A stretch of DNA of 64,000 nucleotides from Streptomyces sp. MMBL 11-1. Lineage in GTDB: Bacteria > Actinomycetota > Actinomycetes > Streptomycetales > Streptomycetaceae. The translations under genes and the position numbers were made by a program. The stretch spans positions 744,001 to 808,000 of the forward strand of contig NZ_CP117709.1 in the NCBI RefSeq assembly GCF_028622875.1, in the 5' to 3' direction. The notes under the pieces are model-generated. The model had not been told where the DNA came from. It made no database searches and was given only the letters and a program-made list of their open reading frames with translations. Shown one piece after another: positions 44,558 through 64,000 of this stretch (the first letter of the stretch is position 1; every line of letters begins with the position of its first letter).

Positions 44558-44941
44558 TCAGCGCACGAGGAGGTCGAGCAGCCGTTCCACCTCGCCGGCC
44601 GGGTCGGTGGTCAGGCCGCTGTGCACGGCGCCGGGCTGGACGACCGTGGAGCGCGGGGCGATCAGCCAGCGGAACCGCCGTCCGGCGTCGTCGCCCGCCG
44701 CCTGACCGGCGCCCTCGCCCCCGCCGCAGACCCCTTCGACGGCGCGCAGGGCGGCCCGCACCCCGGCGGCGTCGGCCCCCGGGTCCAGCGCGAGCAGCTT
44801 CGCCTCGTCGAGGTGCGTACGGGCGGCGACGAACGAGTGGGCCCGGCAGTAGACGAGCACCCCGGCGTTGAAGCATTCCCCCCGCTCGACCCGGGGCACG
44901 ACGCGCAGCAGCGCGTACTCGAAGACGTCGCGCCGCGTCAT
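44558..44941 (-). CDS. DUF3037 family protein
   Basis: This is a 127-residue protein. The N-terminal block FEYALLRVVPRVERGECFNAGVLVYC is the DUF3037 signature, and RRFRWLIAPRSTVVQPGAVHSGLT is the second conserved block. Its start overlaps the stop of the HipA-like kinase gene (ATGA), and the two families habitually co-occur. The biochemical role is unknown; it may modulate or be modified by the kinase. Confidence 0.88.
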   Translation of the reverse strand: MTRRDVFEYALLRVVPRVERGECFNAGVLVYCRAHSFVAARTHLDEAKLLALDPGADAAGVRAALRAVEGVCGGGEGAGQAAGDDAGRRFRWLIAPRSTVVQPGAVHSGLTTDPAGEVERLLDLLVR

Positions 44942-45813
44942 CGGCCGTCCTCCTCGGCGGCACCGGCGGCTGCCGCGGTCCGGCCGCCGCCGGGCTTCTG
45001 CCGGGGAGGCAGACGCTCGGTGAGCCAGCCGGGAGCCTGGGAGGGCCGGGTCGCGGCCGGCGCGTCCAGGGTGATCCGCTCGTGGATGTCGGCGGCCCGC
45101 GCGAGCAGCGGCGCGATGTAGGCCCGGCGCACCTCGTCGGCGGAGGCGAAGCCGGGCTCGTCGGCCAGCCAGACGTCGGGCACGTCGGCGGCCACCTCGG
45201 CGAGCAGTTCTTCGGTGACCAGCGGGGCGAGCTCGGCGGCCGCGGCCGCGATGTCCGGCCCGAAGGGCGCCAGGACGTGGTCCGAGGCGTTGTACGGCTT
45301 GGCGGCGGACGTCTGGGCGCCGGGCCAGTTGTGGTGCCAGATCATGGTCGCGCCGTGGTCGATGAGCCAGAGGTCGCCGTGCCAGACGAGCAGGTTGGGG
45401 TTGCGCCAGGAGCGGTCGACGTTGTTGATCAGCGCGTCGAACCAGACGACCCGCCCGGCCTCGGCCGCCCCGACCTCGTACGCGAGCGGATCGAACCCGA
45501 ACGAGCCCGGCAGGTAGTCCATCCCGAGGTTCAGTCCGCCGCTCGCGCGGAGCAGCTCCTGCACCTCCTCGTCGGGCTCGGCGAGTCCGATGACGGGGTC
45601 GAGCTCGATGGTCACCAGCTCGGGCACCCGCAGCCCCAGCCGACGGCCCAGTTCCCCGCAGATGATCTCCGCGACGAGCGTCTTGCGGCCCTGGCCCGCC
45701 CCGGTGAACTTCATGACGTACGTACCCAGGTCGTCGGCCTCGACGATCCCGGGGAGCGAGCCGCCCTCACGCAAAGGCGTGACATAGCGGGTCGCTACGA
45801 CCTCTTCCAGCAC
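44938..45813 (-). CDS. HipA-like kinase family protein
   Basis: This 291-residue protein has the HipA/PI3-4-kinase-like fold. GTYVMKFTGAGQGRKTLVAEIICGELGRRLGL (ATP-binding lysine and following acidic helix), MDYLPGSFGFDPL, WFDALINNVDRSWRNPNLLV (catalytic D with N: N-x-D-R) and LWLIDHGATMIWHHNW (metal-binding D-H-G) give a complete active site. Free-standing HipA-like kinases phosphorylate proteins or small molecules; the DUF3037 partner differs from the HipB antitoxin, and no HTH HipB gene is present, so this is not a classical toxin-antitoxin module. The C-terminus is low complexity. The start is GTG. Confidence 0.88.
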   Translation of the reverse strand: MLEEVVATRYVTPLREGGSLPGIVEADDLGTYVMKFTGAGQGRKTLVAEIICGELGRRLGLRVPELVTIELDPVIGLAEPDEEVQELLRASGGLNLGMDYLPGSFGFDPLAYEVGAAEAGRVVWFDALINNVDRSWRNPNLLVWHGDLWLIDHGATMIWHHNWPGAQTSAAKPYNASDHVLAPFGPDIAAAAAELAPLVTEELLAEVAADVPDVWLADEPGFASADEVRRAYIAPLLARAADIHERITLDAPAATRPSQAPGWLTERLPPRQKPGGGRTAAAAGAAEEDGR

Positions 45814-46188: not shown

Positions 46189-46587
46189 TCAGGCCTCCGC
46201 GCGCGGCGGTTCCGGGACGACGGCGCCCAGGGCCGGTTCGGCGTAGACGTACTCCTCGATCCGGTCGATGAGACCGTCCTGGAAGCGGAAGTAGACCGCG
46301 GCGTGGACATCGCCGCGGGACCCGTCGTTCCCGGTCAGGTGCAGCACGTGCTGCTGGAACACCTCGTCGGGATTGCGGAACCGGCGGATCACGTCGTAGC
46401 TCAGCGAGTCGACGCCCGCGGTGAAGGACCTGAGCCGCTCCAGGCTCTCCTCGATCGGCTGTTCGCCCTGGCCGTCGTTCTGCCGCACCGTGGCGGCCTC
46501 GGTGCACATCGTCCGAGCGGCGGTGAAGTCGAACGCCTCCAGACTCCGCAGAAACAGGTTCACCCGGTCGTCGATGTCGTGTGTCAT
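46189..46587 (-). CDS. SnoaL-like polyketide cyclase/NTF2-fold protein
   Basis: This is a 132-residue NTF2-fold protein: helices DRVNLFLRSLEAFDFTAARTMCTEAATVRQND then SLERLRSFTAGVDSLSYDVIRRFRN and the sheet EVFQQHVLHLTGNDGSRGDVHAAVYFRFQDGLIDRIEEYVY, the usual SnoaL-like finish (F-x-D-G-L-I-x-R-I-x-E-Y). In polyketide clusters this fold catalyses aldol cyclisation or related steps. It is 59 bp downstream of the carboxylic acid reductase on the same strand, so a role in closing the ring of the aldehyde product is attractive. AGGAAGGG precedes ATG. Confidence 0.82.
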   Translation of the reverse strand: MTHDIDDRVNLFLRSLEAFDFTAARTMCTEAATVRQNDGQGEQPIEESLERLRSFTAGVDSLSYDVIRRFRNPDEVFQQHVLHLTGNDGSRGDVHAAVYFRFQDGLIDRIEEYVYAEPALGAVVPEPPRAEA

Positions 46588-46646
46588 GGCGGTTTCCCTT
46601 CCTGATGTGGTGACGCAGGCGCTGTCGGCAGCCGGTCGCGGCCCGG

Positions 46647-49600
46647 TCAGGGACGGAAGAGGAGCCCGAGTGCGCGCAGGTCGGTGACGTACTTGCGGAT
46701 CAGGTCCGGCGACACCCGGGGGATGTCGCCCCCGGGGCCGACCCCCGCCGCCCTTACGGCGGCGTGGAAGCGCCCGGCGGGGAGCGGCGACCCCGGGGCG
46801 CCCTCGCCGGGTTGCGCGTAGGCGCCGAGCAGCGGGAGCAGCGAGTGCCTCCGGTGTTTCTCCGGCAGGGCGCGGAGCGCCGCGGTGAAGCGGGTGAGCC
46901 AGGCGCCGTGGTCGTCGATCCGCCTGATCGGGTGGCCGGCCTCGATGAGCCAGTCGACGAAGGTGTCCAGGGAGACGCCGTCGTCGTGCGGGTTGACCAC
47001 GTTGAAGGTCCGGTGGCCCTCGGTGGTCCGTGCGCCGAGCGCGACGACGGCCTCCGCGGTGAAGTCGACCGGCAGGCCGTCGTGGTGCGCACGGGACCCC
47101 GCCCGGTAGAACGAGCCGGGCGCGATGCCGGTGGCGACCAGGCTGAGCAGCAGGCGGGTGAGGACGTCGGGCACGTTGACCTGCCCGGCGTACGTGCTGT
47201 GCGCCAGGAGCAGGTCGGACCGGAAGACGGTGACCGGCAGGCCGTAGCGCTCGTGCGCTTCCCGGAGCAGGACCTCGCCGGCCCATTTGCTGGTCGCGTA
47301 CCCGTCGGCGTACCCCTGGCCGATGCTCCGTACCGGGCTGGTGGCGCGGATGTCGGCGTCCTCGGCAGGGGTTCCGAGGCAGACGGCGACCGTCGAGACG
47401 TAGGTGACGGGCTTCAGCCGCGCGGTGAGCGCCAGCCGGATCACTTCGGCGGTGCCGAGGACGTTGGGGCCGAACAGTTCGCTGTACGGCAGCAGGTGGT
47501 TGACCAGCGCGGCCGGGTGGACGATCAGGTCCACGGTGTCGGCCAGCTCCCGCCAGGTGTCCTCGCTCAGACCCAGCCGCGGTGCGCCGATGTCCCCCGC
47601 GAGCACCTCCAGGGTCTTCCCGGCCGCCGTGCGGTAGCGCCGGAGCAGCGCGGCGTCGCCGCTGTCGAAGGCTGCCTCCAGCCGCCTGGCCGCGACGGTC
47701 GCGTCGCTGCCGCGGACGAGGCAGATCAGCCGCCCGCCCGAGGACGCCAGCCGCTCCAGCCACTCCAGGCAGAGGAACCGGCCGAGGTAGCCGGTGGCTC
47801 CGGTCAGCAGGACCGTCCGTACGTCGCTGTCGGGGCGGGGCCTCGGCGGAACCGCGGCGAGCGTGGGCGCGTCGAGGAACTTCTCCAGGGTGAGGTCCCC
47901 GGCGCGGACTTCGGTGCGGTGCTCCCCGTGCACGGAGGCGAAGGTGGGCCGCCGCGTCCCGTCCGGCCGGCGGGCCGAAGCGATGTACCGCGCCACCTCC
48001 GCCAGATCATTGGCCGGGCTGATGATCACACCGACCGGGACGTCGACGTGGAAGATCTCCTTCATGAGCCCGGAGAACGACACGGCGGAGAGGGAGTCCC
48101 CGCCGAGGTCGGTGAAGTGCGCGCCGGGCCGGAGAGCGGTGCTCGCACATCCCAGCAGGGCCTGGGCGGCCCGGGTGACCGTCTCCTCCACCGGCCGGTC
48201 CGCCCCCGTGCGCCGCAGTTCGCCCAGCCGGCGGTCCTGGCCGTCGGCCAGCTGCTCGTACAGCAGCTCCAGGGCCGGCCCGTAGCGCTCCTTGAGGCGG
48301 GGGCGCAGGAGTTTGTGGCTCTCGGTGAAGAGGCCGTTTTCGGGGCTGAAGGGCTCGGTCTCGACGAGGATCCCGCGGGGGATCTCGTACGAGTTGAGTC
48401 CGGCCCCTCTGGCAGTGCTCCGGAGGGATTCCATGAGCAGCGGCCGGAGCGCTTCGGTGTCCCCGCCGCACCCGGCCAGCGCGGCCGGGGTGGGCACCAC
48501 CACCGCGAGCAGGTAGGCGCGCTCGCTGTTGCCGTACAGGTAGAGGTGCTGGACGAGAGGGCTGCCGAGGAGAACGGTCTCCAGGCGGGACACGGCCACG
48601 AACTCGCCCTGGGACAGCTTCAGGGTGTCCTTCGTACGGTCGACGTAGACCAGCCGGTCGGGCCCGGTCTCGGCGAAGACGTCACCGGTGCGGTAGTAGC
48701 CGTCCGCGTCGAAGACCGTGGCGGTGAGGTCGGGGCGCCGGTAGTAGCCGGGGATGAGCGTGTGCGACTTGAGAAGGAGTTCGCCGCGCGGATACGGCAG
48801 GTCGGTCGCGTAGTAGCCCAGTTCGGGGACGTCCACCAGCTTGTAGTCGGTGACCGGAGGGCGCTGGACCACCGTGTCCAGCAGCACGCCGCCCGCTTCG
48901 GTGGAGCCGTAGCCGGTGTAGAGGTGGAAACCGAGGACGGACTCGACGAACGCCGCGAGCTCGGCGGAGAGCGGGGCGGTGCCGACGAACGCCTTGGCGA
49001 CCCGTCCGCCCAGGAAGTCCTCCCGTATCGCCCTCCTGACCGCTGCCTCGGTGTCACCCGGCTCGCCGACCCGGCGGTCCAGCTCGCTCCGGTAGTGCTG
49101 GAGGAGCATGTCGCACAGGCGCGGGACCATGGTCAGCTCCGTGGGGCGGACCAGGGCGATGTCCTCGAACAGGGTGGACAGGTCGTCGGCGGCCGTGAAG
49201 TAGCCGGTGCCCCCCTTCAGGAGTGAGCCCATCACCGCGTAGCGGCCGGCGAGATGGCTCTGCGGAAGGTAGAGGACGCTGATCGCGGGGGTGTCGGCCG
49301 CCCCGTAGCTGAACCCGTACCACGCGGTGCTCAGGAGCCGTTGGGTGTACATGGCGCCCTTGGGTGCGCCGGTGCTGCCGGAGGTGTAGATGAGCAGGGA
49401 GAGCGGGTCCTCACCCGGGGCCGCGGTGTACAGGGGCGGGGGCGGCAGGGCGCTGCCCCGGTCGGTCAACTCGGCCAGTGTCTCCACGGCGACCGGGCTC
49501 CCGGCCCCGGCCAGGCGTTCCCGGGCGGCCGCCGCCCCGCGCGGGCCGGTGGCCCCCCGGCCGTGGTCGAAGACGACGAGGCGCCGGATCGTGCTCGACG

Positions 49601-50084
49601 CGAGGACCACGTCCACGGCGGTGTCCAGCCGGTCGACGCTCGCGGCCAGCACCGTCGGCTCGGACTCCGCGACGATCGGCGCCAGTCGGGACGGCGAGGC
49701 GTTGGACTGGAGCGGCACGGGCACGGCCCCCAGGTGGATGCACGCCAGGTCGAGCGTCGCGTAGTCGGTGCTGGTGAAGCCGAGGGTGCAGATCCGGTCG
49801 CCGGGGCCCAGGGGGTACTCCGGGTCGTGGTGCCACCGGCCGGCCAGCGCGCGGACACGGGACCACAGTTCGCGGTAGCTGATGGTGTCGAAGCGCGGGA
49901 GGAGCCGCCCGGTCTCCGGGTCCCGGGCGCGTTCGCCGAGGGCGGGCAGATCCCCGTGGCTCTCCAGTACGGACGCCATGACCTCGGCGAGCGCCCGGCC
50001 CGGGGCTACGGAGGCCAGGGCCTCGGCAAGCCCCTGGCCCGGGTCGCGCGCCGGCGCGGTGGCGGCGTCCAGCGGTTCGGCCAT
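46647..50084 (-). CDS. Carboxylic acid reductase (adenylation - carrier - thioester reductase)
   Basis: This is a 1145-residue CAR. The adenylation domain (about 1-640) has [20 protein letters not shown] (about 235, the P-loop-like A3 core), [33 protein letters not shown] and [20 protein letters not shown] (A8 to A10 region, with lysine in K-L-S-Q-G-E). The carrier domain has [17 protein letters not shown] (phosphopantetheine serine about 665). The reductase domain (about 755-1145) has [19 protein letters not shown] (NADP loop), [10 protein letters not shown] and the Y-x-x-x-K in [13 protein letters not shown]. It converts a free acid to an aldehyde using ATP and NADPH. In this cluster it would reduce the polyketide acid released by the TE domain. 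GGAGGATCC precedes ATG. Confidence 0.94.
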
Positions 50085-50182
50085 GGTGGATCCTCCGGTG
50101 GCGGTTCCGTGGTGGGGACGGTGCGGGGCGGGGCCGCTCGTGGGCGCGGCGGCCCGGTGGCCGGCCTCGGGCGGTACGGACG

Positions 50183-51376
<1,194 letters not shown>

Positions 51377-51472
51377 CGTGTCCGTCCTTTCCGGGCCGCC
51401 GAGCGGTCGGCCGCCGGTGTTCGGTGGTGTGCCGTCAGATGCCGGGGGCGTTCCGGACGGCGGCCGAGGGTC

Positions 51473-52261
51473 TCAGCACAGACTCGCGGTCTTCCCGCCG
51501 TCGATGACGACGTTGCTCCCGGTGATCCATGAGGCGCGGGGAGAGACCAGGAAGCTCACGGCGTCGGCGATGTCCTCGGGCTCCCCGAGCCGCCCGAGCG
51601 GGATCTCGGCGGCCCACTGTCCGGTGAGGTCGTCGGGATCTCCGCCGTGGAGTTCGACGATCCGGGTGCGGGCGATCTCCGAGGCCGGTGTCTCCACGTT
51701 GCCCAGGCAGACGGAGACGACCCGGATGCCGTCCGGCGCCAGCTCGGCGGAGAGGCCCTTGCTGTACGTCTCCAGCGCGGACTTGGCGGCGGCGTAGTGC
51801 AGGAGGTTCGGGTAGGCCGCGACGCTCGCGATCGACGACACGTGGACGATGGCGCCGCCGTTCTCGCGCATGGCGGGCACGAGGGCCGCGTTGAGCCGGA
51901 CGGCGGCGAGGAAGTTGATGTCCATCGTGTACTGCCAGTCGTTCTCCAGCTCCAGCACGCTCTGGAACGAACGGCAGCCGCCTGCGTTGTTGACGATGAT
52001 GTCCACCCCGCCCAGCAGCTTCAGCGCGGTGTCGGCGAAGTTCCGCACTCCGTCGGGGGTGCTGAGGTCGGCCGCGACGAACGCGGCGCCCCGCGGTGTG
52101 TGCGGGGTCTCGCTGCGGGCCGAGGTGACGACGGTCGCGCCGGCGTCGAGCAGGTTGCGCGCGATGGCCGCGCCGATCCCGCGGCTGCCGCCGGTGACCA
52201 CGGCACGTCGGCCCGCCAGCTCACCGGACGGTGTGGGGATGCGGCTGCTCTCCGTCGCCAT
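51473..52261 (-). CDS. Short-chain dehydrogenase/reductase, cluster ketoreductase
   Basis: This 262-residue SDR has GRRAVVTGGSRGIGAAIARN, VDIIVNNAGGCRSF, AIVHVSSIASVAAYPNLLHYAAAKSALETY (catalytic S, Y, K) and VSVCLGNVETPASEIA; the C-terminus is ASWITGSNVVIDGGKTASL. Arginine and serine after strand 2 (SARSE) suggest NADPH preference. By position it is the first gene of the leftward transcript, divergent from the ene-reductase. The likely role is reduction of a ketone on the polyketide, such as the C-alpha ketone that separates actiphenol from cycloheximide. Confidence 0.92.
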   Translation of the reverse strand: MATESSRIPTPSGELAGRRAVVTGGSRGIGAAIARNLLDAGATVVTSARSETPHTPRGAAFVAADLSTPDGVRNFADTALKLLGGVDIIVNNAGGCRSFQSVLELENDWQYTMDINFLAAVRLNAALVPAMRENGGAIVHVSSIASVAAYPNLLHYAAAKSALETYSKGLSAELAPDGIRVVSVCLGNVETPASEIARTRIVELHGGDPDDLTGQWAAEIPLGRLGEPEDIADAVSFLVSPRASWITGSNVVIDGGKTASLC

Positions 52262-52575
52262 GGGGCTCCACCATTTTCCCTTACGGGCCGTCATACGACC
52301 GAAATGGACTGGACGTTGCGTTTTCGCCGACCGGGTGACGCTGTTCCACCGGCCCAAATATCCATGGCCCGACCGGCACGGTCAAACGCATAGCGCCGAT
52401 GCAATGGATCGCCTTTCGCGATTCAGCGGCACTGTGGTCAACGAAGCGGATTCTCATGCACAATCGTCGGGCGGCCGGACCATTTCCCGAACCGCCTGAG
52501 AATTCCCCGCCGATGAGGAAACCAATAAACGTGCGGGATGCCGTCGCGACGGCTCCCGCGACCCGGGAGGACATC
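52262..52575. promoter_or_regulatory. Divergent promoter region of the cluster (SDR versus ene-reductase)
   Basis: This 314-bp gap is clearly richer in A/T than its surroundings (TTTTCCCTTACGG, CCCAAATATCC, ACCAATAAACG) and contains no credible gene. GATT-N9-AATC (52449-52465) is a dyad of the general LysR-box shape (T-N11-A type) and is a candidate site for the cluster's LysR regulator. Control of both directions from here would set the SDR-P450-CAR-SnoaL transcript and the ene-reductase together. Confidence 0.5.
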
Positions 52576-53670
52576 ATGGCCAGTCTGGATGAACCGTTCA
52601 CCGTGGGCGGCCTCACGCTCCCCAACCGGATCGTGATGGCCCCGATGACGAGGACGGCGTCTCCCGGCGGCGTACCCGGTCCGGACGTGGCGGAGTACTA
52701 CGCACGCCGGGCGGCACACCGCGTCGGGCTGATCATCACCGAGGGCACCTACATCGGCCACCCCACCGCCCCCGCGTACGACGGCGTGCCCGAGTTCCAC
52801 GGCGAACAGGCCCTCGCCGGCTGGGCCCATGTGCTGCGCCGGGTGCACGAGGAGGGCGGCCGGATCATCCCGCAGCTGTGGCACACGGGCGCGGCGCGCA
52901 CCGCGACCGACCCGCCCGCCGAGGGCCCCTCCGGGATCGGGCTGGACGGCGCCCCGGTGGGACGGGCCATGACGCGGAAGGACATCGACGCCGCGGTGGA
53001 GGCGTTCGCGGAGGCCGCCGCGCACGCCGCGCGGCTGGGGTTCGACGGGGTCGAGCTGCACGGCGCGCACGGCTATCTGATCGACGACTTCCTGTGGACC
53101 GGCACCAACCGGCGCACCGACCGCTACGGCGGCGACCCGGCCTCCCGGGCCCGGTTCGGCGCCGAGGTCGTGCGGGCGGTCCGCGCGGCCGTCGGTCCGC
53201 GGTTCCCGGTCTTCTTCCGTTTCTCCCAGTGGAAGCTCGGCGAGTACGGGGCCCGCACCGCGGCCAGCCCGGAGGAGCTGCGCCTGCTGCTGGAGCCCCT
53301 GGCCTCGGCCGGTGTCGACGTGTTTCACGCCTCGACCCGGCGCTACTGGCTGCCGGAGTTCGAGGACAGCGACAGCACGCTCAACCTGGCCGGCTGGATA
53401 CGCAAGCTCACCGGCAGGCCCACCGTGGCCGTCGGCTCGGTCGGGATGGACCGGCAGTACGGCGAGGGCGACTTCGCCCAGGGCTTCACGGGGCCGTCCG
53501 GCGTGACGGGCATCGACGAGCTGGTGGCCCGCCTGGAACGCGACGAGTTCGACCTGGTCGCCGTGGGCCGGTCGTTGCTGGCCAACCCGGACTGGGCGGC
53601 GCTGGCGCTCCGGGGTGAGCTGGACCGGGCCGTCCCCTACGACCCGTCCGTGCTGCGGACCCTGGTCTGA
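52576..53670 (+). CDS. Old Yellow Enzyme family NADH:flavin oxidoreductase (ene-reductase)
   Basis: This is a 364-residue FMN-binding (beta/alpha)8 barrel of the OYE/NemA type: PFTVGGLTLPNRIVMAPMTR at the N-terminus, EGTYIGHPTAPAYDG, IPQLWHTGAA, GFDGVELHGAHGYLIDDFLW (H-G-A-H-G-Y-L substrate/proton motif), TNRRTDRYGGDPASRARF and FDLVAVGRSLLANPDW (phosphate-binding G-R). It reduces activated C=C bonds with NAD(P)H. In the cluster it is the best candidate for saturating a dienone or phenol tautomer to cyclohexanone. GGGAGG precedes ATG by five bases; it is the only rightward gene of the cluster. Confidence 0.94.
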   Translation: MASLDEPFTVGGLTLPNRIVMAPMTRTASPGGVPGPDVAEYYARRAAHRVGLIITEGTYIGHPTAPAYDGVPEFHGEQALAGWAHVLRRVHEEGGRIIPQLWHTGAARTATDPPAEGPSGIGLDGAPVGRAMTRKDIDAAVEAFAEAAAHAARLGFDGVELHGAHGYLIDDFLWTGTNRRTDRYGGDPASRARFGAEVVRAVRAAVGPRFPVFFRFSQWKLGEYGARTAASPEELRLLLEPLASAGVDVFHASTRRYWLPEFEDSDSTLNLAGWIRKLTGRPTVAVGSVGMDRQYGEGDFAQGFTGPSGVTGIDELVARLERDEFDLVAVGRSLLANPDWAALALRGELDRAVPYDPSVLRTLV

Positions 53671-53969
53671 GGGACGGTGGCGCCGAAGGTCCCGGCGGAG
53701 AGCCGCGCCACCGGGTCCGGGGCTCCGCGGAAAGGGGGCTCGGGCACGGTGGCCCGCGCCCCTCATTTCCCCGGGGCGCATTCCCGATGACCGCGTCCCG
53801 GATATCCGCCGGGGCCGGCTCGGCGGCCCGGCCGCACAGACTCGCGTCGTACGTGAGAAATGTCCGCCGCCCTTCGCCCTCCCCGGAAGAACTTCCCGGG
53901 GAGGGCGAATTCAGCGACGTACGAAGGGCCATCGAAAGGCCGCATTTTCCCAGGCATTCCGGCCGGCCC
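53671..53969. other. Gap between ene-reductase and LysR gene (terminator, no gene)
   Basis: Apart from the hairpin at 53873-53909 no gene or repeat is supported in this 299-bp stretch. The DNA after the hairpin is comparatively AT-containing (GCGACGTACGAAGGGCCATC, then CGCATTTTCCC). Confidence 0.5.
53873..53909. terminator. 14-bp hairpin between convergent ene-reductase and LysR genes
   Basis: Arms TTCGCCCTCCCCGG (53873-53886) and its exact complement (53896-53909) enclose a 9-nt loop. It lies 60 bp past the end of the leftward LysR gene and 200 bp past the ene-reductase stop, suiting both directions. Confidence 0.85.
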
Positions 53970-54905
53970 TTACGGACCGCCCGGCCGGGGTCCGCTCCGG
54001 GCCGGCGGCACCGTCGAGCCGAGCACGTCCAGGAAGGCCATGGCGCGGCCGCTCATCGCCAGACCGGGCATCATGGCGACGCCGAGGGCGGCGGGAGGCA
54101 GGTCTCCGGCGATCTCGACCGTGCGGACCGTCCCGCCGTCGAGGGTCGTCGTCGCCTCGGTGCGCTGGTACATCAGGGCGAACCCGGAGTCGGCCGCCAC
54201 GAGCCCCCGTACCGTCTCGATGCTCGCCGCCCCGATCACGCGCGGCAGGGGGACGCCCGCGTTGGCGAACAGCTTCTCCGTGTGGCGGATGACGTCGGGC
54301 GCGTTCAAGGTGACCAGCGGGCGGGCGGCCAGCTCGGCCAGTTCCACCGGTCCGCTCCTGCCCAGGGGGTCGCCGTCGGCCAGCACGGCGTGGACGGGCA
54401 GCTCGGCCAGGGCGTGGAACCGGGCGTCCCCGGCCAGGAAGTCGTAGGTGACCGCCAGTTCGCAGCGTCCTTCCCGCAGGAGCGCCGCCAGCCGGTCGGG
54501 CGGCTCCTCGTGGACGGTCAACCGGATGTCCGCGTAACGCTGCCGGGTGAGCCGGTGGACGCCGGGCAGCAGGAACGGGGCGAGTGACGGGAGGAAGCCG
54601 ACGTCGAGCCGGCCGACGGCGTCCCCCGCCAGGGCGTCGCCCCGCGCCTTGAGACTCCTGGCCCGCCCCAGCAGTTCGCGGGCCTCCCGCAGCAGATGGC
54701 GCCCGCTCGGGGTGAGAGAGACCCCTCGGGCGTGATGCCGCAGGAGGAGCTGTACGCCGAGTTGGCGCTCCAGCCTCATCACGGCCGAGGAGACCGTCGA
54801 CTGCGAGGCGCACAACTGCTCCGCCGCCTCCGATATGTTGCCCACTTCGGCGGAGACGACGAAGTACCGCAGTTGCGCGAGGCTGAAGTTCAGGCCGTCG
54901 CTCAT
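53970..54905 (-). CDS. LysR family transcriptional regulator of the polyketide cluster
   Basis: This is a 311-residue LTTR. The N-terminal winged HTH reads LAQLRYFVVSAEVGNISEAA then QSTVSSAVMRLERQLGVQLL (about residues 8-60), followed by LTPSGRHLLREARELLGRAR, the linker helix. The C-terminal periplasmic-binding-like effector domain (about 95-300) has RLDVGFLPSLAPFLLPGVH and VRGLVAADSGFALMYQR. The ATG overlaps the PKS stop by one base (TGATG), so the regulator is made by translational coupling at the end of the PKS transcript. That is unusual for LTTRs, which are normally divergent to their target. The probable targets are the PKS promoter and the divergent region near 52.4 kb. Confidence 0.94.
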   Translation of the reverse strand: MSDGLNFSLAQLRYFVVSAEVGNISEAAEQLCASQSTVSSAVMRLERQLGVQLLLRHHARGVSLTPSGRHLLREARELLGRARSLKARGDALAGDAVGRLDVGFLPSLAPFLLPGVHRLTRQRYADIRLTVHEEPPDRLAALLREGRCELAVTYDFLAGDARFHALAELPVHAVLADGDPLGRSGPVELAELAARPLVTLNAPDVIRHTEKLFANAGVPLPRVIGAASIETVRGLVAADSGFALMYQRTEATTTLDGGTVRTVEIAGDLPPAALGVAMMPGLAMSGRAMAFLDVLGSTVPPARSGPRPGGP

Positions 54906-57900
54906 CACGCGCCTCCGGCCCGGTCCCGCAGGGTGTCCAGCCAGCGGTCGACCGTGAGCGCGGTCGACCCGGCGTGCTCCTCCAGCAGGGAGAAGTGGTC
55001 CCCCGCCACGTCGGCCCGCCGGTGCTCCAGGGGCCAGCCGGACCGGGCGTCCTCGCCGAGCAGTTCCAGCAGCGGCCCTTCCCGCTCGGCTCCCGCCAGC
55101 AGGGTCGGGGTGGTCACCGGCATCGGGCGCCAGCCGTCGAGCAGTTGCCCGTACCAGGCCATCGCCGTCACCTGTTCGTCGTCGAGGGGCAGGCGCGGGA
55201 ACCGCTCGATCAGCCGCCGCGTGATCACGGTCATGCCCGGGACCATCGCCGCTCCGGTCGTCCGCGGGGTGTCGAGCAGCACCAGCCCGGCGGGGGGTGC
55301 GCCGGCCGCCTCCAGCCGGCGCACCACCTCGTGGGCCAGCCAGCCGCCGGACGAGTAGCCCGCGAGCGCGAACTCCCCGTCCCCGAGCCGTCGGAGCACG
55401 GTGGCGGCCAGCCGTTCCGCCGCCGCCTCCAGGTCCGCGGGCAGCGGCTCCCCGGGACGGTAGCCGGGCAGGGAGACCGCCCAGACCCGGCGGCGGCCCC
55501 GGAGCGCGCCGGCGAAGTTCACGTACTGGTGGGCCCCGGTGGGGGCGATCAGTGACGGCAGGCAGACCAGGTCGGGCCCCTGCCGTCCGTCCGACAGCCT
55601 CAGCAGCTCCGGCTCGTCGCACGCTCCGGCCGCGAGGACCGGCCGGAGCCGGGCGGCCATCGACAGCAGGTCACCGGCCTGCTGCGGGGTTCCGGCCTCC
55701 AGCACCGTATGGAACAGGGTGGCGACGGAGCGGGGGGAGTCCGCCGACGGCCGCGGCGCGGGCCCAGGGGCGGGCCGGCCCCCCGCAGCCGGGTTCAGGC
55801 GCGCCACGAGGGCGTCCACGTGCGGGCCGCCGCTCGTGACGAAGTGATCGGCGAGCTCCTCGACGGACTCGGCGTCGAAGAGCAGGGTGGACGAGATCTC
55901 GCCGAGGTCCTCCCGCAGGGCGTTCGTCAACTGGAGCACGAGGATGGAGTCCATGCCGTAGTCGCTGAGCGGAGTGGAGAGGGCGATCCGGTCCGCCGGG
56001 ATACCGAGGGTCTCCGCGGCCCGATCACGGAGGTACCCGGCCAGGGACTCGGCCCGGCTCCCCGGTCCGGCGGCGGACAGGTCGACCGCTCCGCCGGCCA
56101 GGAGGTCGGCGGGGGCCTGGACGAAGGCGGGGGCGGAGGGCCGCGGGACGGCGACCGCACCGGGCGGGGGCGGGGAGCCCGCCGCTACCGGGGCCGCCGC
56201 TTCCCAGGCCGCCGCTTCCCGGTCCGTCGGTTGACGGTCCGTCGGTTGACGGTCCGTCGCTTTCCGAGCCGTCGCTTTCCGAGCCGTCGGCCGCCGGTCC
56301 GTCGGTTGCCCGCGGCCGGGCTTCCGGGCCGCGGGCGTGGCTTCGGCCCGCCGGCCCACGGACTGCCGGGCGAGCCCGTCGCTCTCGGCGGCGATGATCT
56401 GCTGCCCCAGCTCCCGTGCCTCCGGCAGGACGGGCACGACCGCCGCGAACCCCTCGCTCTCCAGCACCTTCCGCCAGTTCTCGGGCGACAGCGCCGGCGA
56501 ACCCGGAATGCGCAGCGCGTCGTCCTCGAAGAGCCACCAGCCCTCCAGCAGACCGAACGTGAGGTGGCTGGAGATGTCGAAGGCAGCGAGTTCGTTGAGC
56601 AGGAGCCACCCTCCGTCGCGCAGGGCCGCCTTCGCGTTGCGGATCGTGTTCCGGGTGTCGCGCGTCGCGTGCAGCACGTTGGCGGCGACGACCAGGTCGT
56701 AGCCCCCGCTCTCCACCCCCTGCTGCCCGGCCAGCGGCCGCTCGGCGTCGAACCGGGCGTAGGAGAGGTACGGCACGCCGGGTCCGTACGCGGTACGGGC
56801 GTGGTTCAGGAACGCCTTCGAGAGATCGGTGTACGTGTAGGTCTCGATGTGGTCCTGGAAGGGGCGCAGCGCCGCGAACATGCCGACGCTGGTTCCGCCC
56901 GTGCCGGCGCCGATCTCCAGGACGCGGAGTCGTGCCGCGGGGTCCAGGCGCAGCCGTTCCCCGACGACGGCGACCGCGGCGTCGGCCATGGCGCGGTTGT
57001 ACAGGTCGGCGACCCGGTTGTCGCGGTAGGTTCCTTCGACGAGTTCGACGGAGCCGCGCGGGAACAGGATGTCGGTCGGCCTGGTCACACCGGTGAGGAT
57101 GCCGGGGAGCGCCCGGAGCGTGGCGTCGAGCAGGGCGAGTTCGGCCGCCTTGTCGGGGTCGGTGGACCAGCGGGCGCGGCTCTCGTCCCACTCGCGGAGG
57201 AGGACGTCCGGCGACGGGGCCGTGTCCGGCACGAAGCGGAGCGCGTGGTCGAGCCAGGTCGCGTACCGGTCCAGGATCCCGGCGCGCCGGCGGAGCCGGT
57301 CGATGTCGCCGGGGGACGTGGGAGTTCCGGGGCCGCGCAGCCCGCCGAGCGCCTGCAGGTGGCCGCGGACCATCCTCGCCAGGAGGGGATCGCGGTCATG
57401 GGCGCGCCACGCGGCGATCGCGCGCATCTCCCCCCACTCGGCGGGCAGGGCGGCGGCCGAAGCGACGAGGGCGGGCGCGACGCGGTTCCGTGCCCTGGGG
57501 TGGACGGTGATCCGCGTCGTCGCGTCGAGCGCCTCGATGGCGTCGAGGTCCTTCATCTTGATGAAGCTCAACTGGCGCTGGGGGCCGCCGAGCAGCGTGT
57601 CGAGCGCGTCCATCGCCTCCGGCGCCTCGATCGAGAGGAGGCCCCAGCGCGCCATGTGCTCCTTGTGCCGCTCGGTCGAGGCGCTGCCGACGCTCCCCCA
57701 CCATCCCCAGTTCATCACCTTGACCGGGCAGGGCCAGTGCCGGTCGAGGAAGTGGGCGTAGGCGTCGCCGAAGGTGCAGCCCGCCGCGTAGTTGCTCTGG
57801 CCCGCCGCCGTGGTGAACGACTGGACGGAAGAGAAGAACAGGGCGAAGTCCAGCGCCTCGTCCGCGAAGACCTCGGCCATGGCCACTCCGACGTCGACCT

Positions 57901-60900
57901 TCGCGGCGAGGCTCGCCCGCAGGGTCGCCTCGTCCATCCGTGCCAGGCTCTGGTCCCGCAGGTCGAGCGCCGCCTGGACGATGCCGTGGATGCGCGGGTG
58001 GCGGCGTTTGATCTCCTTGTGGGCGAGGCTCAGCGAGGCGGGGTCGGCGGCGTCGGCGGACAGGTAGCTCACCCGGCCGCCGGCCTCGGCCAGCCGTGCG
58101 TCGATCGACGCGTCCCGCGGTCGTCGGCCGATCCAGATCACGTGGGCGTCGTGGTTCCGCACGACGTGCCGGGTCCACTGGGCGCCGAGTCCGCCGGCGC
58201 CGCCGATCACGACGTAGACGCCGCTCTGCCGGTACGGGGCGGGCCGGGGGTCGCCGGGCTCGTTCGGCGCCCAGCGACGCGCCAGCCACTGGCCCGCGCG
58301 GTGGGCCAGGGGGTCGTCGCCGGTACGGCCGGGGGGCGTCAGGAGGTCGTCGGGCAGCTCGGCGGTGTCGAGGTCGGCCCGGCGGACGGACCAGTTCGCG
58401 TACTCCTGTGCGAGCGACCCGAAGAAGCCGTGCAGCCCGGCGTGGGCGGGTGCGGTCGGCTCGTCGTCGTACGTGGCGAGGGCGCGGCATGTGACCAGGG
58501 TGATGCGGAGCGGGCGCGCGTCGTGTCCGGTGCGGACGAGGGCCTTGGCCGTACGGAAGGCCGCGATGACACCTCCCTCCTGGGCAGCGGTGAACCCGGC
58601 GGTGTCGGTCGGCGGGAGAGCCGCCCCGTCATCCGGCCCGGCACCGGGCGCGATCCAGACGAGGTGGCCGACCGGCCCCGTGGACCGGAGCCGTACGGCG
58701 ATCTCGTCGGTCGTCGCGCCGGGGGCGAGGTCCCACGGGGTGGCGCCCGGGTGCCGGCCGACGAGTGCGGCCCGCTGTTCGGCCGTGCCTCCCACCACGA
58801 GGACGTGATCCGTGGGGTCCGGGGCGTGCTCGCCCGGGGCGTGCGTGGCCACGGGCTCCCAGACGGGTGCGAACAGGGAGGGGACCGGCGCCTTGAGGCG
58901 GCGCGAGGTGTAGCCGGTCATCCGTACGCAGACCCGGCCGTCGTGGTCGGTGATGTCCACGTCGAGCCGGCTCAGCGCGGTCGCCGGCCCGGCCCCGTCG
59001 GCGACGCGGACGACGGCCCGCGCCGAGGACGGGCACGGGGCGAGGAGTTCGAACCGGTCGAGCGCGAACGGCACCGCGGTCTCCGGGTCGGCCGGTCCGT
59101 CGGTGAGGTGCAGCGCGATGGACGCCTGGATGGCGGAGTCCAGGAGCGCCGGGGGAAGAACAGCTCCGCCGTCGGCGGGGTCCGCGCCTGCCGGGAGTTC
59201 CAGCTCGGCGAGGACGGTCCCGGTGCCGGTGTCGACGTACGCCTCGCGGATGGCCCGGAGCGACGGCCCGTGGACGATGCCCATCGACGCGAGCGCCTCG
59301 CGGACGCGTTCGGCGGACACGGTCGTCGTGCAGGCCGTACGGAGGGACGTGAGGTCGACGGGTGCGGGACGGGTCGTGCCGGTGCGGGACACACGCCCGG
59401 TGGAGAGGACGGTGGGGTCGGCGCCCCGGTCCGCCCGTGCGGTGATCTCGAAGGTGAGCTGGTCGTCGTCGCCGGGTTTCACCAGGACGTCGACGCCCAG
59501 GGGTCCTTCGCCCCCGGCGGTGGCCGGCCGTACCCAGGTGATGTCGCGCATCAGCAGGGGGGCCGTCGCGTCCGCGCCCCAGAGTCGCACCGCGGTCTCC
59601 CGCGCCAGTTCGAGGTGGACGACGCCGGGAAGGACGCGCTGTCCGCGCACCGTGTGGTCACGCAGGACGGGGGCGGCGTCCGTGAACACCGCGGAGGCGC
59701 GCAGTGCGCCGGGAGAGTCCGCTGCCTTCGATATCCGTTGGATCAGCGGGTGTCCCGCCGCCGGGCGTGGTCGGGAAGTGACGGGGACGGGCCGTGGCGC
59801 GGCGGGCGGCGGACCGGCCCAGTGGCTCTCCCGGGCGAACGGGTAGGTGGGCAGGGGGACCCGCCGGTGGGATCCGGCCGGGTAGAGCGCACCGTAGTCG
59901 AGTGCGGTGCCCCGGACGAAGCACTCGGCGAGGACGGTGAGGTCCGCACGGTAGCTCTCGACGTCCGCCCGGCGGTTCTCGGCGTCGGAGCCGTACGCGT
60001 CCGCCAGTGCGTTCCCGGCCTCCGCACCGTACTGCTCCGCTTCCGTTCCGGTGGCGGTGAATCGCGCGCAGCGCTCCAGGGATGCCTCGCCCCGGCTCGT
60101 GTCCGCGCCCGGCCGGCCCTCGCCCTCGGCCGCCCGGCCGGTGAACGCCCGCGTTCCGTCGAGCCCCGCGTCGAGGATCCGCAACAGCTCGGCGCGGTCC
60201 TTCGCCACGCAGGCGAACCGGTGGGGGAAGCGGTCCCTTCCCACCGTGAGCGTGTACGCGAGGTCGCCGAGGTCCGGGGCGTCCTCGTGGCGGATGCGCT
60301 CGGCCAGCCGGGAGACCTGCTGGGCCAGTTGCTCCCGCGAGTGCGCCGAGAGGACGACCAGCCGCATGGGCTCGGGCGTACGGGAGCCGGTCCGCGTGGT
60401 GTCGGGCGCCTCCTCGACGACGAGGTGGGCGTTGGTGCCGCTCGCGCCGAAGGAGCTGACGGCACCCCGGCGGGGCCCGCCGTCGGACGGCGGTTCCCAC
60501 GCGTGGTCGCGCGTGCTCAGGTAGAAGGGGCTGGTGTCGAGGTCGATGGCGCTGTTGGCCTTCTCGAAGTGCAGCGAAGCCGGGATCCGGCGGTGCCGCA
60601 TCGCGAGGAGGATCTTGAAGACCCCCGCGACGCCGGCGGCGAACTGGGTGTGCCCGAGGTTCGACTTGACGGAGCCCAGCGCGCAGTAGCCGGTCCTCTC
60701 CGGGCCGGCCCGGAAGACCCGGCTGAGCGCCGAGAACTCGATGGGGTCCCCGAGCGGGGTGCCGGTTCCGTGCGCCTCCAGGAGCTGGATGGACCCGGCG
60801 TCGATGCCGCCGGCCGCGTGGACGTCGCGGAGCAGGGCCTCCTGCGACACGGAGCTGGGCGCGGTGATGCCGTTGGTCGCACCGTCGTGGTTGCTGCCCG

Positions 60901-63900
60901 TGGCGCGGATGACGCCGTGGATGTGGTCCCCGTCGGCGATCGCGTCGTCCAGCCGCTTGAGCACGAGGACGCCGACGCCCTCACCGGGGACGAAGCCGTC
61001 GGCGCGGTGGTCGAAGGTGTGGCAGCGGCCCGTCGGCGAGAGCATCCCGGCCCGCCCGGCCAGCTCGTAGAGGCGGGGGGTCGTCTGGACGAAGACGCCG
61101 CCCGCCAGCGCCATGTCCGTCTCGCCCGACCGGAGCCCCCGGCAGGCGAGGTCGATCGCGATGAGCGAGCTGGAGCACGCCGTGTCCACCGCGAGCGCGG
61201 GGCCCTTCAGGTTGAGGACGTAGGAGACACGGGCCGGGATCAGCGATGCCATGTTCCCCCAGAAGGCATGGGCCGGACCGTTCTCCCCGACCAGCTCGTG
61301 GTAGTCGCCGTTCCAGCAGCCCACGTACACGCCGCAGCGGGACCCGCTCAGCTGCCGCCCGGCGTGGCCCGCGTCCTCCAGGGCCTTCCACGCCTCTTCC
61401 AGGAGCAGTCGCTGCTGGGGGTCCATGACGGCGGCCTCGACGCCCGAGATGCCGAAGAAGAGCGGGTCGAACCGGTCGATGCCGTCGAGGAAGCCTCCCC
61501 GCGTGCAGCGCGCGGATCCGTCGGCTCCGGTGGCCGGGAGGTCCCAGCGGGTCGCTTCGGTGATGAGGTCGTCGCCGTTCGCCAGATGGGTCCACAGCTC
61601 GTCGAGGGTGTCGGAACCGGCGAACCGCCCGCTCATCCCGACCACGGCGATCGGTGCGGGGCCGGTCGACGGCCCGACGGGAACGGTGCCGCCGGCGGTC
61701 GCCGGGCGGGCGGCGGTGACACCGCTCCGTTCCCGGGCCGGGGCGGCAGCCGGGGCCGGGGCGGGAGCCGGGGCCACGGGGGCCGGAGGAACGGGGGCGG
61801 GGACGGGGTCCGCCACGGGCCCGTACTCCGCGAGCAGATGCGCGGCGAGGCGGTCGGCGGAGCTGTGGTCGAAGACGACATCGGTCGAGAGGTCGGTTCC
61901 CAGCTCCTCGTTGAGCACATGGACGAGCCGGACGGCGAGGATGGAGTCGAGGCCGTAGTCGGCGAAGGCGAGCCGGCCCTCGATCTCGTCCGGCGGCATG
62001 GCCAGGACGTCCCCGATCTTCGCGCGTACCAGCCGCGCGACCCGTTCGCCGGGTGCGGTTGCGGCCGGCTCCTCGGGTGCTGTCGCGGTGCGCGGCGCGG
62101 CGGGAGCGTCGGCCGGGGCGCCGGTGGGCGCACCCGTGCGGACACCGGCGCCGGTCGCGTCCCCGGCCGGCTCCAGGTCGCCGATCCAGAACCGGTCCCT
62201 CGCGAACGGGTACGTCGGCAGGGAGATCCGGCGGGGCGGCGGCACCGCCCCGGGGAGTGCCCGCCAGTCCAGGTCCATCCCGCCCGCCCAGAGCGCGGCC
62301 AGCCTGTCGTGCCCGCCCTCGCGGCCCCACCGTTCGGCGAGGAGTTCCCGGAGGTCGTCGTCGGCCCGGATCCCGGGGCCCGCGCCCCGGTCCTGCCCGG
62401 CGCTGCCCCGGTGCAGTCCAGGTGCGGTCCCGTCACCGGTCTCGGCGAACGCGCCGAGCACCCGCCGGAGTTCGCTCAACGAGAGCACCGTCACCGCCAG
62501 GCGCTCCTTCATCGCCTCGCGTCCGGACCGCAGGGTGAACGCGAGGTCCGCCAGGCGGACCGTCCGCCCCTGCGCCTCCTCCTGTTCGAGGAAGGCCACC
62601 AGGCGCGCGGCGCAGTGCCGCAGCCCCTCCGAGGTCCGTGCCGACAGGACGACGAGCTGCTCGCCGTCGTCGGCGCGCTCGGCGGGGGCGGTGTCCGCCA
62701 CGTACTCCTCGATGATCACGTGCGCGTTCGAGCCGCCGGCCCCGAAGGAGGAGACCGCCGTGACGCGCGGCCGTACGGACTCCCAGGGCGCGAGGGTCCG
62801 TTGGAGGCGGAACGGCGTCTCCTCGAAGCTGATGCCGGGGTTCGGTTCCTCGGCGTGCAGGCTCGGGACGAGGGTGCGGTGCCGGAGCTGGAGGACGGCC
62901 TTGGTGACACCGGCGATGCCCGCGGCTGCCTCCAGGTGTCCGATCACCGACTTCACGGAGCCGATCGCGCAGAACTGCCGGTCCCCGGTGAACTTCTCGA
63001 AGGCGAGCGAGAGCCCCTTCACCTCGATCGGGTCGCCCAGTTCCGTGCCGGTGCCGTGCGCCTCGACGTAGCCGACCTCGCGCGCCGAGATCCCGGCCCG
63101 GGTCAGCGCGTCGCCGATCAGTTCCGCCTGGGCGGCCGGGCTGGGCACCGTGTAGCCGTTGGACCGGCCACCGTGGTTGATGCTCGTGCCCCGGACCACG
63201 GCGAGCACCCGGTCCCCGTCCGCGAGTGCGCGCGTCAGCGGTTTCAGCAGCACCGCGCCGACGCCCTCACCGGGGACGAACCCGTCGGCGCCGCTGCCGA
63301 AACTCCGTACCCGGGACTGCGCGGACAGCATGCCGGAACGGCAGAGTTCGACGTAGTCGGACGGGTGCAGATACAGGTTCACGCCCCCGGCGACGGCCAG
63401 CTCGCAGGAGCCCCGGCGCAGATGCTCGCAGGCTTCGTGGATCGCCGTGAGCGAGGACGAGCACATGGTGTCGATCGTCAGGCTGGGGCCCCGGAGGTCG
63501 AGGACGTAGGAGGTACGGGCGCTGAGCGAGGCGAACGAGAGCGCGGGGGCGACCCGCTCGCCGGACGGCAACCGGGCCTCGCCGTGCCGTGCGTGGCCGG
63601 ACTTGGTCACACCGGCGAAGACGCCGACGCGCCGCTGGTGCCGACGGGCCAACTCCTCGCGGGTGTAGCCCGCGTCCTCGATCACTTCCCAGGACGCCTG
63701 GAGGAACAGGCGCTCCTGCGGGTCCATGGCGTACGCGTCGCGCGGCGCGATCCGGAAGAAGTGCGGGTCGAACGCGTCGAATTCCTCCAGGAATCCACCC
63801 CACTTGCTGTAGCTGCGTCCGGTGGCGACGGCGGTGGCGCGGTCCGGCTCGTAGAAGCCGTCCAGCGGCCACCGGTCCCGGGGGATCTCGGTGATGCGGT

Positions 63901-64000
63901 CGCGTCCGGCCGTGAGACGCTGCCAGAACTCGTCGGTGTTCCGCGCGCCCGGATAACGCCCGCTCATCCCGATGATCGCGATGGCGTCGTCCCGTGCGGG
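54905..64000 (-). CDS. AT-less (trans-AT) type I polyketide synthase, KS-ACP-KS-DH-KR-MT-ACP-TE, N-terminus beyond window
   Basis: The frame is open through the right edge, so the visible 3031 codons are the C-terminal part. Numbering from the ATG at 63967: KS1 to about 422 (Cys169 in TMCSSS, His304 in HGTGT, GHLEAAAG); a post-KS linker without any AT; ACP1 (Ser675 in DYGLDSI); KS2 about 745-1185 (Cys931, His1066, LGHTQFAAG); DH about 1405-1690 (H1438 in DHTVRGQRVLPG, D1610 in LLDSAIQ); KR (GGAGGLG about 1922, Tyr2060 in SNYAAG); C-methyltransferase (VLEIGAGTGGTS about 2350); ACP2 (Ser2674 in DYGMDSI); TE (Ser2872 in GYSSGG, His in GDHFSLL). All active sites look intact. Extender units must come from a discrete acyltransferase. 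Chain release is by hydrolysis or cyclisation at the TE. The stop overlaps the LysR start. Confidence 0.95.
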   Translation of the reverse strand, partial: PARDDAIAIIGMSGRYPGARNTDEFWQRLTAGRDRITEIPRDRWPLDGFYEPDRATAVATGRSYSKWGGFLEEFDAFDPHFFRIAPRDAYAMDPQERLFLQASWEVIEDAGYTREELARRHQRRVGVFAGVTKSGHARHGEARLPSGERVAPALSFASLSARTSYVLDLRGPSLTIDTMCSSSLTAIHEACEHLRRGSCELAVAGGVNLYLHPSDYVELCRSGMLSAQSRVRSFGSGADGFVPGEGVGAVLLKPLTRALADGDRVLAVVRGTSINHGGRSNGYTVPSPAAQAELIGDALTRAGISAREVGYVEAHGTGTELGDPIEVKGLSLAFEKFTGDRQFCAIGSVKSVIGHLEAAAGIAGVTKAVLQLRHRTLVPSLHAEEPNPGISFEETPFRLQRTLAPWESVRPRVTAVSSFGAGGSNAHVIIEEYVADTAPAERADDGEQLVVLSARTSEGLRHCAARLVAFLEQEEAQGRTVRLADLAFTLRSGREAMKERLAVTVLSLSELRRVLGAFAETGDGTAPGLHRGSAGQDRGAGPGIRADDDLRELLAERWGREGGHDRLAALWAGGMDLDWRALPGAVPPPRRISLPTYPFARDRFWIGDLEPAGDATGAGVRTGAPTGAPADAPAAPRTATAPEEPAATAPGERVARLVRAKIGDVLAMPPDEIEGRLAFADYGLDSILAVRLVHVLNEELGTDLSTDVVFDHSSADRLAAHLLAEYGPVADPVPAPVPPAPVAPAPAPAPAAAPARERSGVTAARPATAGGTVPVGPSTGPAPIAVVGMSGRFAGSDTLDELWTHLANGDDLITEATRWDLPATGADGSARCTRGGFLDGIDRFDPLFFGISGVEAAVMDPQQRLLLEEAWKALEDAGHAGRQLSGSRCGVYVGCWNGDYHELVGENGPAHAFWGNMASLIPARVSYVLNLKGPALAVDTACSSSLIAIDLACRGLRSGETDMALAGGVFVQTTPRLYELAGRAGMLSPTGRCHTFDHRADGFVPGEGVGVLVLKRLDDAIADGDHIHGVIRATGSNHDGATNGITAPSSVSQEALLRDVHAAGGIDAGSIQLLEAHGTGTPLGDPIEFSALSRVFRAGPERTGYCALGSVKSNLGHTQFAAGVAGVFKILLAMRHRRIPASLHFEKANSAIDLDTSPFYLSTRDHAWEPPSDGGPRRGAVSSFGASGTNAHLVVEEAPDTTRTGSRTPEPMRLVVLSAHSREQLAQQVSRLAERIRHEDAPDLGDLAYTLTVGRDRFPHRFACVAKDRAELLRILDAGLDGTRAFTGRAAEGEGRPGADTSRGEASLERCARFTATGTEAEQYGAEAGNALADAYGSDAENRRADVESYRADLTVLAECFVRGTALDYGALYPAGSHRRVPLPTYPFARESHWAGPPPAAPRPVPVTSRPRPAAGHPLIQRISKAADSPGALRASAVFTDAAPVLRDHTVRGQRVLPGVVHLELARETAVRLWGADATAPLLMRDITWVRPATAGGEGPLGVDVLVKPGDDDQLTFEITARADRGADPTVLSTGRVSRTGTTRPAPVDLTSLRTACTTTVSAERVREALASMGIVHGPSLRAIREAYVDTGTGTVLAELELPAGADPADGGAVLPPALLDSAIQASIALHLTDGPADPETAVPFALDRFELLAPCPSSARAVVRVADGAGPATALSRLDVDITDHDGRVCVRMTGYTSRRLKAPVPSLFAPVWEPVATHAPGEHAPDPTDHVLVVGGTAEQRAALVGRHPGATPWDLAPGATTDEIAVRLRSTGPVGHLVWIAPGAGPDDGAALPPTDTAGFTAAQEGGVIAAFRTAKALVRTGHDARPLRITLVTCRALATYDDEPTAPAHAGLHGFFGSLAQEYANWSVRRADLDTAELPDDLLTPPGRTGDDPLAHRAGQWLARRWAPNEPGDPRPAPYRQSGVYVVIGGAGGLGAQWTRHVVRNHDAHVIWIGRRPRDASIDARLAEAGGRVSYLSADAADPASLSLAHKEIKRRHPRIHGIVQAALDLRDQSLARMDEATLRASLAAKVDVGVAMAEVFADEALDFALFFSSVQSFTTAAGQSNYAAGCTFGDAYAHFLDRHWPCPVKVMNWGWWGSVGSASTERHKEHMARWGLLSIEAPEAMDALDTLLGGPQRQLSFIKMKDLDAIEALDATTRITVHPRARNRVAPALVASAAALPAEWGEMRAIAAWRAHDRDPLLARMVRGHLQALGGLRGPGTPTSPGDIDRLRRRAGILDRYATWLDHALRFVPDTAPSPDVLLREWDESRARWSTDPDKAAELALLDATLRALPGILTGVTRPTDILFPRGSVELVEGTYRDNRVADLYNRAMADAAVAVVGERLRLDPAARLRVLEIGAGTGGTSVGMFAALRPFQDHIETYTYTDLSKAFLNHARTAYGPGVPYLSYARFDAERPLAGQQGVESGGYDLVVAANVLHATRDTRNTIRNAKAALRDGGWLLLNELAAFDISSHLTFGLLEGWWLFEDDALRIPGSPALSPENWRKVLESEGFAAVVPVLPEARELGQQIIAAESDGLARQSVGRRAEATPAARKPGRGQPTDRRPTARKATARKATDRQPTDRQPTDREAAAWEAAAPVAAGSPPPPGAVAVPRPSAPAFVQAPADLLAGGAVDLSAAGPGSRAESLAGYLRDRAAETLGIPADRIALSTPLSDYGMDSILVLQLTNALREDLGEISSTLLFDAESVEELADHFVTSGGPHVDALVARLNPAAGGRPAPGPAPRPSADSPRSVATLFHTVLEAGTPQQAGDLLSMAARLRPVLAAGACDEPELLRLSDGRQGPDLVCLPSLIAPTGAHQYVNFAGALRGRRRVWAVSLPGYRPGEPLPADLEAAAERLAATVLRRLGDGEFALAGYSSGGWLAHEVVRRLEAAGAPPAGLVLLDTPRTTGAAMVPGMTVITRRLIERFPRLPLDDEQVTAMAWYGQLLDGWRPMPVTTPTLLAGAEREGPLLELLGEDARSGWPLEHRRADVAGDHFSLLEEHAGSTALTVDRWLDTLRDRAGGA

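Follow-up and report, generated by a model that had tools for sequence, protein, structure and literature searches.

A probably complete cycloheximide/actiphenol (chx) gene cluster in Streptomyces and a SnoaL-like gene tied to its cassette

The DNA analysed here (the window, 64,000 nucleotides, G000:C1:744001-808000) comes from a genome of 8.5 Mb in five contigs. Its right-hand part, followed into the adjoining chromosome, very probably represents a complete cycloheximide/actiphenol (chx) cluster, as judged from gene content and order. It adds another example of a known cluster and is mostly ordinary. Its one point of specialist interest is a gene for a SnoaL-like protein, which is statistically tied to chx clusters and for which action at ring closure is a candidate role.

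Cycloheximide serves as a standard inhibitor of protein synthesis in eukaryotes. It is made by strains bearing the chx cluster (PMC7546818; PMC8866825), and S. griseus XylebKG-1 and Streptomyces sp. YINM00001 are described as carriers of the cluster that produce it (PMC4853412, PMC7546818, PMC8866825); an actiphenol variant comes from a more distant cluster (PMC11199612). According to PMC4853412, the chx cluster is composed of a core and the genes chxF (regulator), chxG (enoylreductase), chxH (ketoreductase), chxI (P450) and chxJ (a three-domain carboxylic acid reductase, CAR).

All these positions are filled in the DNA analysed here (Table 1). Read from right to left, the order is AT, ACP, amidotransferase, PKS, LysR-type regulator, Old Yellow Enzyme-type ene reductase (OYE), SDR, P450, CAR and SnoaL-like gene. 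Ahead of the PKS, sequence reading and position identified a discrete AT, an ACP and an asparagine-synthetase-type amidotransferase, each of which pairs one for one with a gene in the relatives. The PKS is AT-less and ends in a TE, and one of its five modules is a branching KS-X-ACP module; the chxF, chxG, chxH, chxI and chxJ places follow without a gap in the set. A sequence-only reading of the window had listed an AT-less PKS with a C-terminal TE, a LysR protein, an OYE, an SDR, a P450, a CAR and a SnoaL_2 protein, and we found all of them. It had also named an amidotransferase, a discrete AT and ACPs as genes to look for to the right of 64 kb, and an amidotransferase, an ACP and an AT lie there at 75544-78856.

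Table 1. Cluster genes and a neighbouring regulator, from right to left; positions above 64000 carry the window numbering on into the adjoining chromosome (extended coordinates)
Feature	Position	Strand	Basis or remark
SARP-like regulator	79165-82506 (extended)	+	sequence reading and position
Discrete AT	77858-78856 (extended)		sequence reading and position
ACP	77597-77854 (extended)		sequence reading and position
Amidotransferase, asparagine-synthetase-type	75544-77580 (extended)		sequence reading and position
PKS (chxE), AT-less, five-module	54905-75547	-	modules 4 and 5 with TE inside the window (54905..64000)
LysR-type regulator (chxF position)	53970..54905	-	PF00126 and PF03466
Old Yellow Enzyme-type ene reductase (chxG position)	52576..53670	+	PF00724 (1e-60); solved OYE family relatives
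SDR ketoreductase (chxH position)	51473..52261	-	PF13561, PF00106; TGGSRGIG and YAAAK motifs
Cytochrome P450 (chxI position), 397 aa	50183..51376	-	PF00067; haem motif
Carboxylic acid reductase (chxJ position), ~1179 aa	46647..50186	-	PF00501, PF00550, PF07993
SnoaL_2 / NTF2-like protein, 132 aa	46189..46587	-	PF12680, 30.0 bits (cut-off 27)

The PKS (6880 aa) extends beyond the window. Pfam pieces together with motif checks yielded the modules KS-DH-KR-ACP, KS-X-ACP, KS-KR-ACP, KS-ACP and KS-DH-KR-MT-ACP-TE. The active-cysteine motif was kept in all five KS domains by motif check, the HxxxGxxxxP and D-Q motifs in both DH domains, and GYSSGG in the TE. An AT domain was sought along the whole PKS at an E-value of 1e-5, and none matched. 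Module 2, which lies outside the window, aligned over query residues 6-1013 of 1021 with the RhiE branching structure 8oii and over residues 6-664 with the RhiE branching structure 4kc5; the best stretch of the higher-scoring PKS entry 7zma reached residue 593 only. The amidotransferase and this branching module, in a gene set that matches the published chxA-J, bear out the cycloheximide/actiphenol type that had been proposed from the window, and module 2 corresponds to the branching module expected in the PKS. As a separate observation, PKS DNA at the right edge of the window has 72-75% likeness to G000:C1:7412658-7413007 in the same genome, and another modular PKS is therefore probably present.

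Several gene boundaries were revised. The CAR reading frame as listed (46647-50951) overlaps the P450 gene by ~770 nt. A CAR of 1434 aa with an extra N-terminal domain was rejected, as the first 255 codons of the frame are the P450 gene in another frame; the likely start is the GTG at 50186, which overlaps the P450 stop as GTGA and gives a product of ~1179 aa. Its relatives among solved structures are 5msc, 5msp and 5mso. The OYE frame was listed from 52399, probably upstream of the true start; the Pfam match starts only at residue 64, and a start near 52576 (MASLDEP) is likely. This gene is divergent from the SDR gene, for which we estimate a start near MATESSR. The ATG of the LysR gene shares one base with the PKS stop (TGATG), and 59 bp separate the CAR stop from the SnoaL-like gene, whose ATG is preceded by an AGGAAGG stretch.

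To survey such clusters, we searched 392 genomes of the genus for the amidotransferase. Seventeen carried a glutarimide-type protein (>800 bits; 59-100% identity), and the next match below them scored 286 bits; the remaining 172 of the 189 matching genomes were set aside as carrying other asparagine synthetases (33-46% identity among the matches listed). In a second draw, which comprised 394 genomes from the family, 11 had a match at an E-value of 1e-150; the repeats G000 and G066 were counted once, so that both draws together comprise 26 genomes with a glutarimide-type amidotransferase. Genomes with a CAR of at least 66% identity were defined as chx-type. This applied to 14 of the 26 (G000, G066, G115, G100, G075, G358, G149, G225, G175, G019, G606, G528, G556 and G506) and not to the other 12. 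CAR, OYE, SDR and P450 occurred in all 14, which were chosen by the CAR, with the other three beside it. The first KS-DH region of the PKS was 55-88% identical to those of the 13 other chx-type loci.

The chx-type loci differ at the PKS end. In G175, G606, G528, G556 and G506 (L137-L139, L158-L165) a C-domain stretch follows the PKS methyltransferase and no TE match was found; in G175 this stretch shares the PKS reading frame. G100, G149 and G019 have a TE and, between LysR and OYE, a separate C-domain gene whose first 160 residues are PKS-like. Both C-domain forms have already been described, as the extra C-domain gene orfX and as the chx-like PKSs of S. noursei ATCC11455 and strain 769 that end in a C domain (PMC4853412). 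Core and cassette are on different contigs in G019, resembling Streptomyces sp. 2AW, in which the cycloheximide core and cassette are apart (PMC4853412). G225 (L134-L136) is rearranged: its cassette is on the opposite side and is read in the direction of the PKS end. Some 18-19 kb separate AT and LysR from ACP and amidotransferase, and the SnoaL-like gene lies in this gap.

The CAR was also searched against genome contigs, giving 123 loci with a relative, of which the best 80 were kept. Among these best 80 of 123, query residues 1-1434 were matched only in S. anulatus JCM 4721 and S. griseus NCTC13033, and no locus but these two carried two or more further cassette genes at >35% identity. Within a comparison that spans 10 kb from the CAR and covers PKS end and cassette, identities to the two loci were 82-84% for the PKS end, 87-92% for LysR, 91-92% for OYE, 90-91% for SDR, 94-95% for P450, 88% for CAR and 84% for the SnoaL-like protein. 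The gene order across this stretch, PKS end through SnoaL-like gene, is not due to chance, since it recurs in these named loci. G115 has the core as well as the cassette.

All members of the glutarimide family have the five-module core (PMC4853412), which by itself therefore leaves the product unnamed. The DNA might thus encode another glutarimide type, like that of streptimidone, lactimidomycin or iso-migrastatin, standing by chance beside an unrelated CAR-P450-SDR-OYE set. We regard this as very improbable, given that core and cassette are near each other on one contig in 13 of the 14 chx-type genomes (G019 has them on separate contigs), that PKS end and cassette recur at 82-95% identity in S. 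griseus and S. anulatus, and that module 5 is the PKS end, terminated by the TE, with no PKS module after it. The sequence-only reading had left room for a close unreported relative of the known clusters; this option is unsupported, because the gene set is identical to the published chxA-J and the S. griseus and S. anulatus loci show the identities just given. As for its suggestion that the LysR coupling may not have been discussed for known loci, the gene occupies the place of the published chxF, a transcriptional regulator, in the gap between PKS and chxG; the word LysR is missing from the main text of PMC4853412.

At the other end, the window genes past the SnoaL-like gene (HipA_2, DUF3037 and SBP) had no counterpart in the chx loci of nine relatives, and the conserved block thus appears to stop at the SnoaL-like gene. 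The HipA_2-like kinase gene and the DUF3037 gene adjoin each other at 44558-45813 of the window (minus strand), just beyond the cluster.

By analogy with established chx and glutarimide biosynthesis, module 1 would extend malonamyl-ACP to an enoyl chain, and module 2 would put malonate on the beta carbon, after which the amide would close the glutarimide. Module 3 would set the hydroxyl, module 4 would leave the ketone, which stays as this module is without a reductive domain, and module 5 would make the methylated alkene that adjoins the terminal carboxyl. The module that would carry the second ring methyl is without an MT, suggesting that the MT of module 5 acts twice or across modules. The TE would then release the acid and the CAR would make the aldehyde, which the carbon alpha to the ketone would attack, closing the six-membered ring. 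This agrees with the earlier retro-assembly of the ring from the last three units: modules 3, 4 and 5 fit, with module 4 unreduced and module 5 bearing KR, DH and MT.

OYE, SDR and P450 would set the redox level, leading to cycloheximide with actiphenol as an intermediate or by-product. The 2014 chx paper reportedly left unsettled whether ring formation proceeds by way of the phenol actiphenol. Actiphenol could be a shunt product, with the OYE reducing the 2-methyl enal before ring closure and the phenol never being reduced. The modules predict a 2-methyl enal after the CAR, 2-methyl enals are classical OYE substrates, and OYE and SDR accompany the CAR throughout the chx-type genomes (14/14); we consider the shunt route an evenly balanced proposition. 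Some mechanisms of cycloheximide biosynthesis are still termed mysterious (PMC8866825).

A SnoaL-like gene was found in 13 of the 14 chx-type genomes and in none of the 12 other glutarimide genomes (E-value 0.001); Fisher's test gave p = 2.7e-6, a value that is too small because the 14 chx clusters share ancestry and the counts are not independent. Twelve of the 14 have the gene inside the cluster, beside the CAR in ten and elsewhere in G225 and G606. In G019 it accompanies the cassette rather than the PKS. A match was sought in G175 at the same E-value and none was obtained, and the sole match of G149 is on another contig (L133, G149:C2:372001-392000). The gene may therefore be helpful rather than essential, and its absence from G175 rejects it as a universal chx marker. 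We also rejected the idea that a C-domain PKS ending replaces the gene, as four of the five C-ended genomes retain it.

Nor is the gene exclusive to chx genomes. At an E-value of 1e-6, 23 of the 392 genomes had a relative, 14 of them non-chx, and these non-chx relatives are more distant and adjoin other genes where their surroundings were inspected. We built a tree with 14 of the 20 listed non-chx copies, leaving out four in G165 and one each in G150 and G372. The 13 chx copies, with that of G149 among them, formed one side of a branch and the 14 outside copies the other (support 93/89); the chx branch was recovered in 92% of 200 bootstrap trees, and a smaller tree with nine chx copies gave a support of 95/94. 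Among the copies in the tree, then, what is confined to chx is a sub-group of the SnoaL-like proteins. At residue 36 each of the 13 chx copies has Q and each of the 14 outside copies in the tree has H. In 22 relatives from the protein database, whose genomic context was not seen, this residue was Q in 19, K in one and H in two, and Q36 is thus not invariant.

The AF2 model of the SnoaL-like protein is an NTF2-like alpha+beta barrel (pLDDT 89.1). Foldseek returned 600 matches at an E-value of 0.001, of which 50 were listed together with 50 VIA rows. Among the matches listed, the fold is common to isomerases, epoxide hydrolases, cyclases and binders, and so does not show the reaction. At an E-value of 0.001 the protein matched PF12680 (SnoaL_2) only and not PF07366, which we take to be the classical SnoaL cyclase family. 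A sequence search of solved structures with the protein and its alignment gave no significant match. The suggestion that such a protein had not been discussed for known loci held within the open-licence full texts, where we found no SnoaL-like gene or cyclase named for chx; the 2014 primary paper and its supplement may list one. In those open-licence texts that contain both 'cycloheximide' and 'SnoaL', the passages draw no link between the two.

We propose, tentatively and at somewhat less than even probability, that the SnoaL-like protein is a dedicated NTF2-fold enzyme of the cycloheximide pathway. It would act on the CAR-made aldehyde, promoting the enolisation for an aldol ring closure or isomerising the enal before closure, and would thereby steer between cyclohexanone and phenol; Q36, in a QNDG motif, would mark the recruited form. 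There is about an even chance that it is instead an NTF2 protein for self-protection or binding, or a passenger at the edge of the cluster, with ring closure being spontaneous or carried out by CAR, OYE or P450. The functional breadth of the NTF2 fold, the lack of a PF07366 match, the missing gene in G175 and the unlinked one in G149 are all consistent with such a protein, as are the DUF1684-like, alpha/beta-hydrolase and cupin genes (named by sequence reading, not by family search) near distant relatives. A passenger, however, would not be expected to survive rearrangement, and the gene does so within the clusters of G225 and G606 and alongside the split cassette of G019; the genes beyond it in the window, unmatched in the nine relatives, also argue against a passenger. 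For the proposed pathway enzyme, this link of the gene to the cassette, together with the lack of a match in the glutarimide genomes that have no such cassette, offers a handle on ring closure.

SnoaL2, IdmH and other NTF2-fold polyketide enzymes share ~12-17% identity with the SnoaL-like protein over the aligned part. To our knowledge, the streptimidone, lactimidomycin and iso-migrastatin clusters are without the ring-forming CAR-OYE-SDR-P450 cassette. They have the same loading genes and five-module glutarimide core as the cluster described here (PMC4853412). The split cluster of Streptomyces sp. 2AW and the C-ended clusters of S. noursei ATCC11455 and strain 769 hold the same two gene sets; by contrast, our cluster has core and cassette together, a TE end and no orfX between LysR and OYE. 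Closest are the chx clusters of Streptomyces sp. YIM56141 and S. griseus, with the same core genes, a TE-ended five-module PKS and the chxF-J cassette order (PMC4853412). The SnoaL-like gene is not among the chxA-J gene names used in that paper. It is nevertheless present in the S. griseus and S. anulatus loci (84% identity), from which our cluster differs, as far as seen, solely by sequence divergence.
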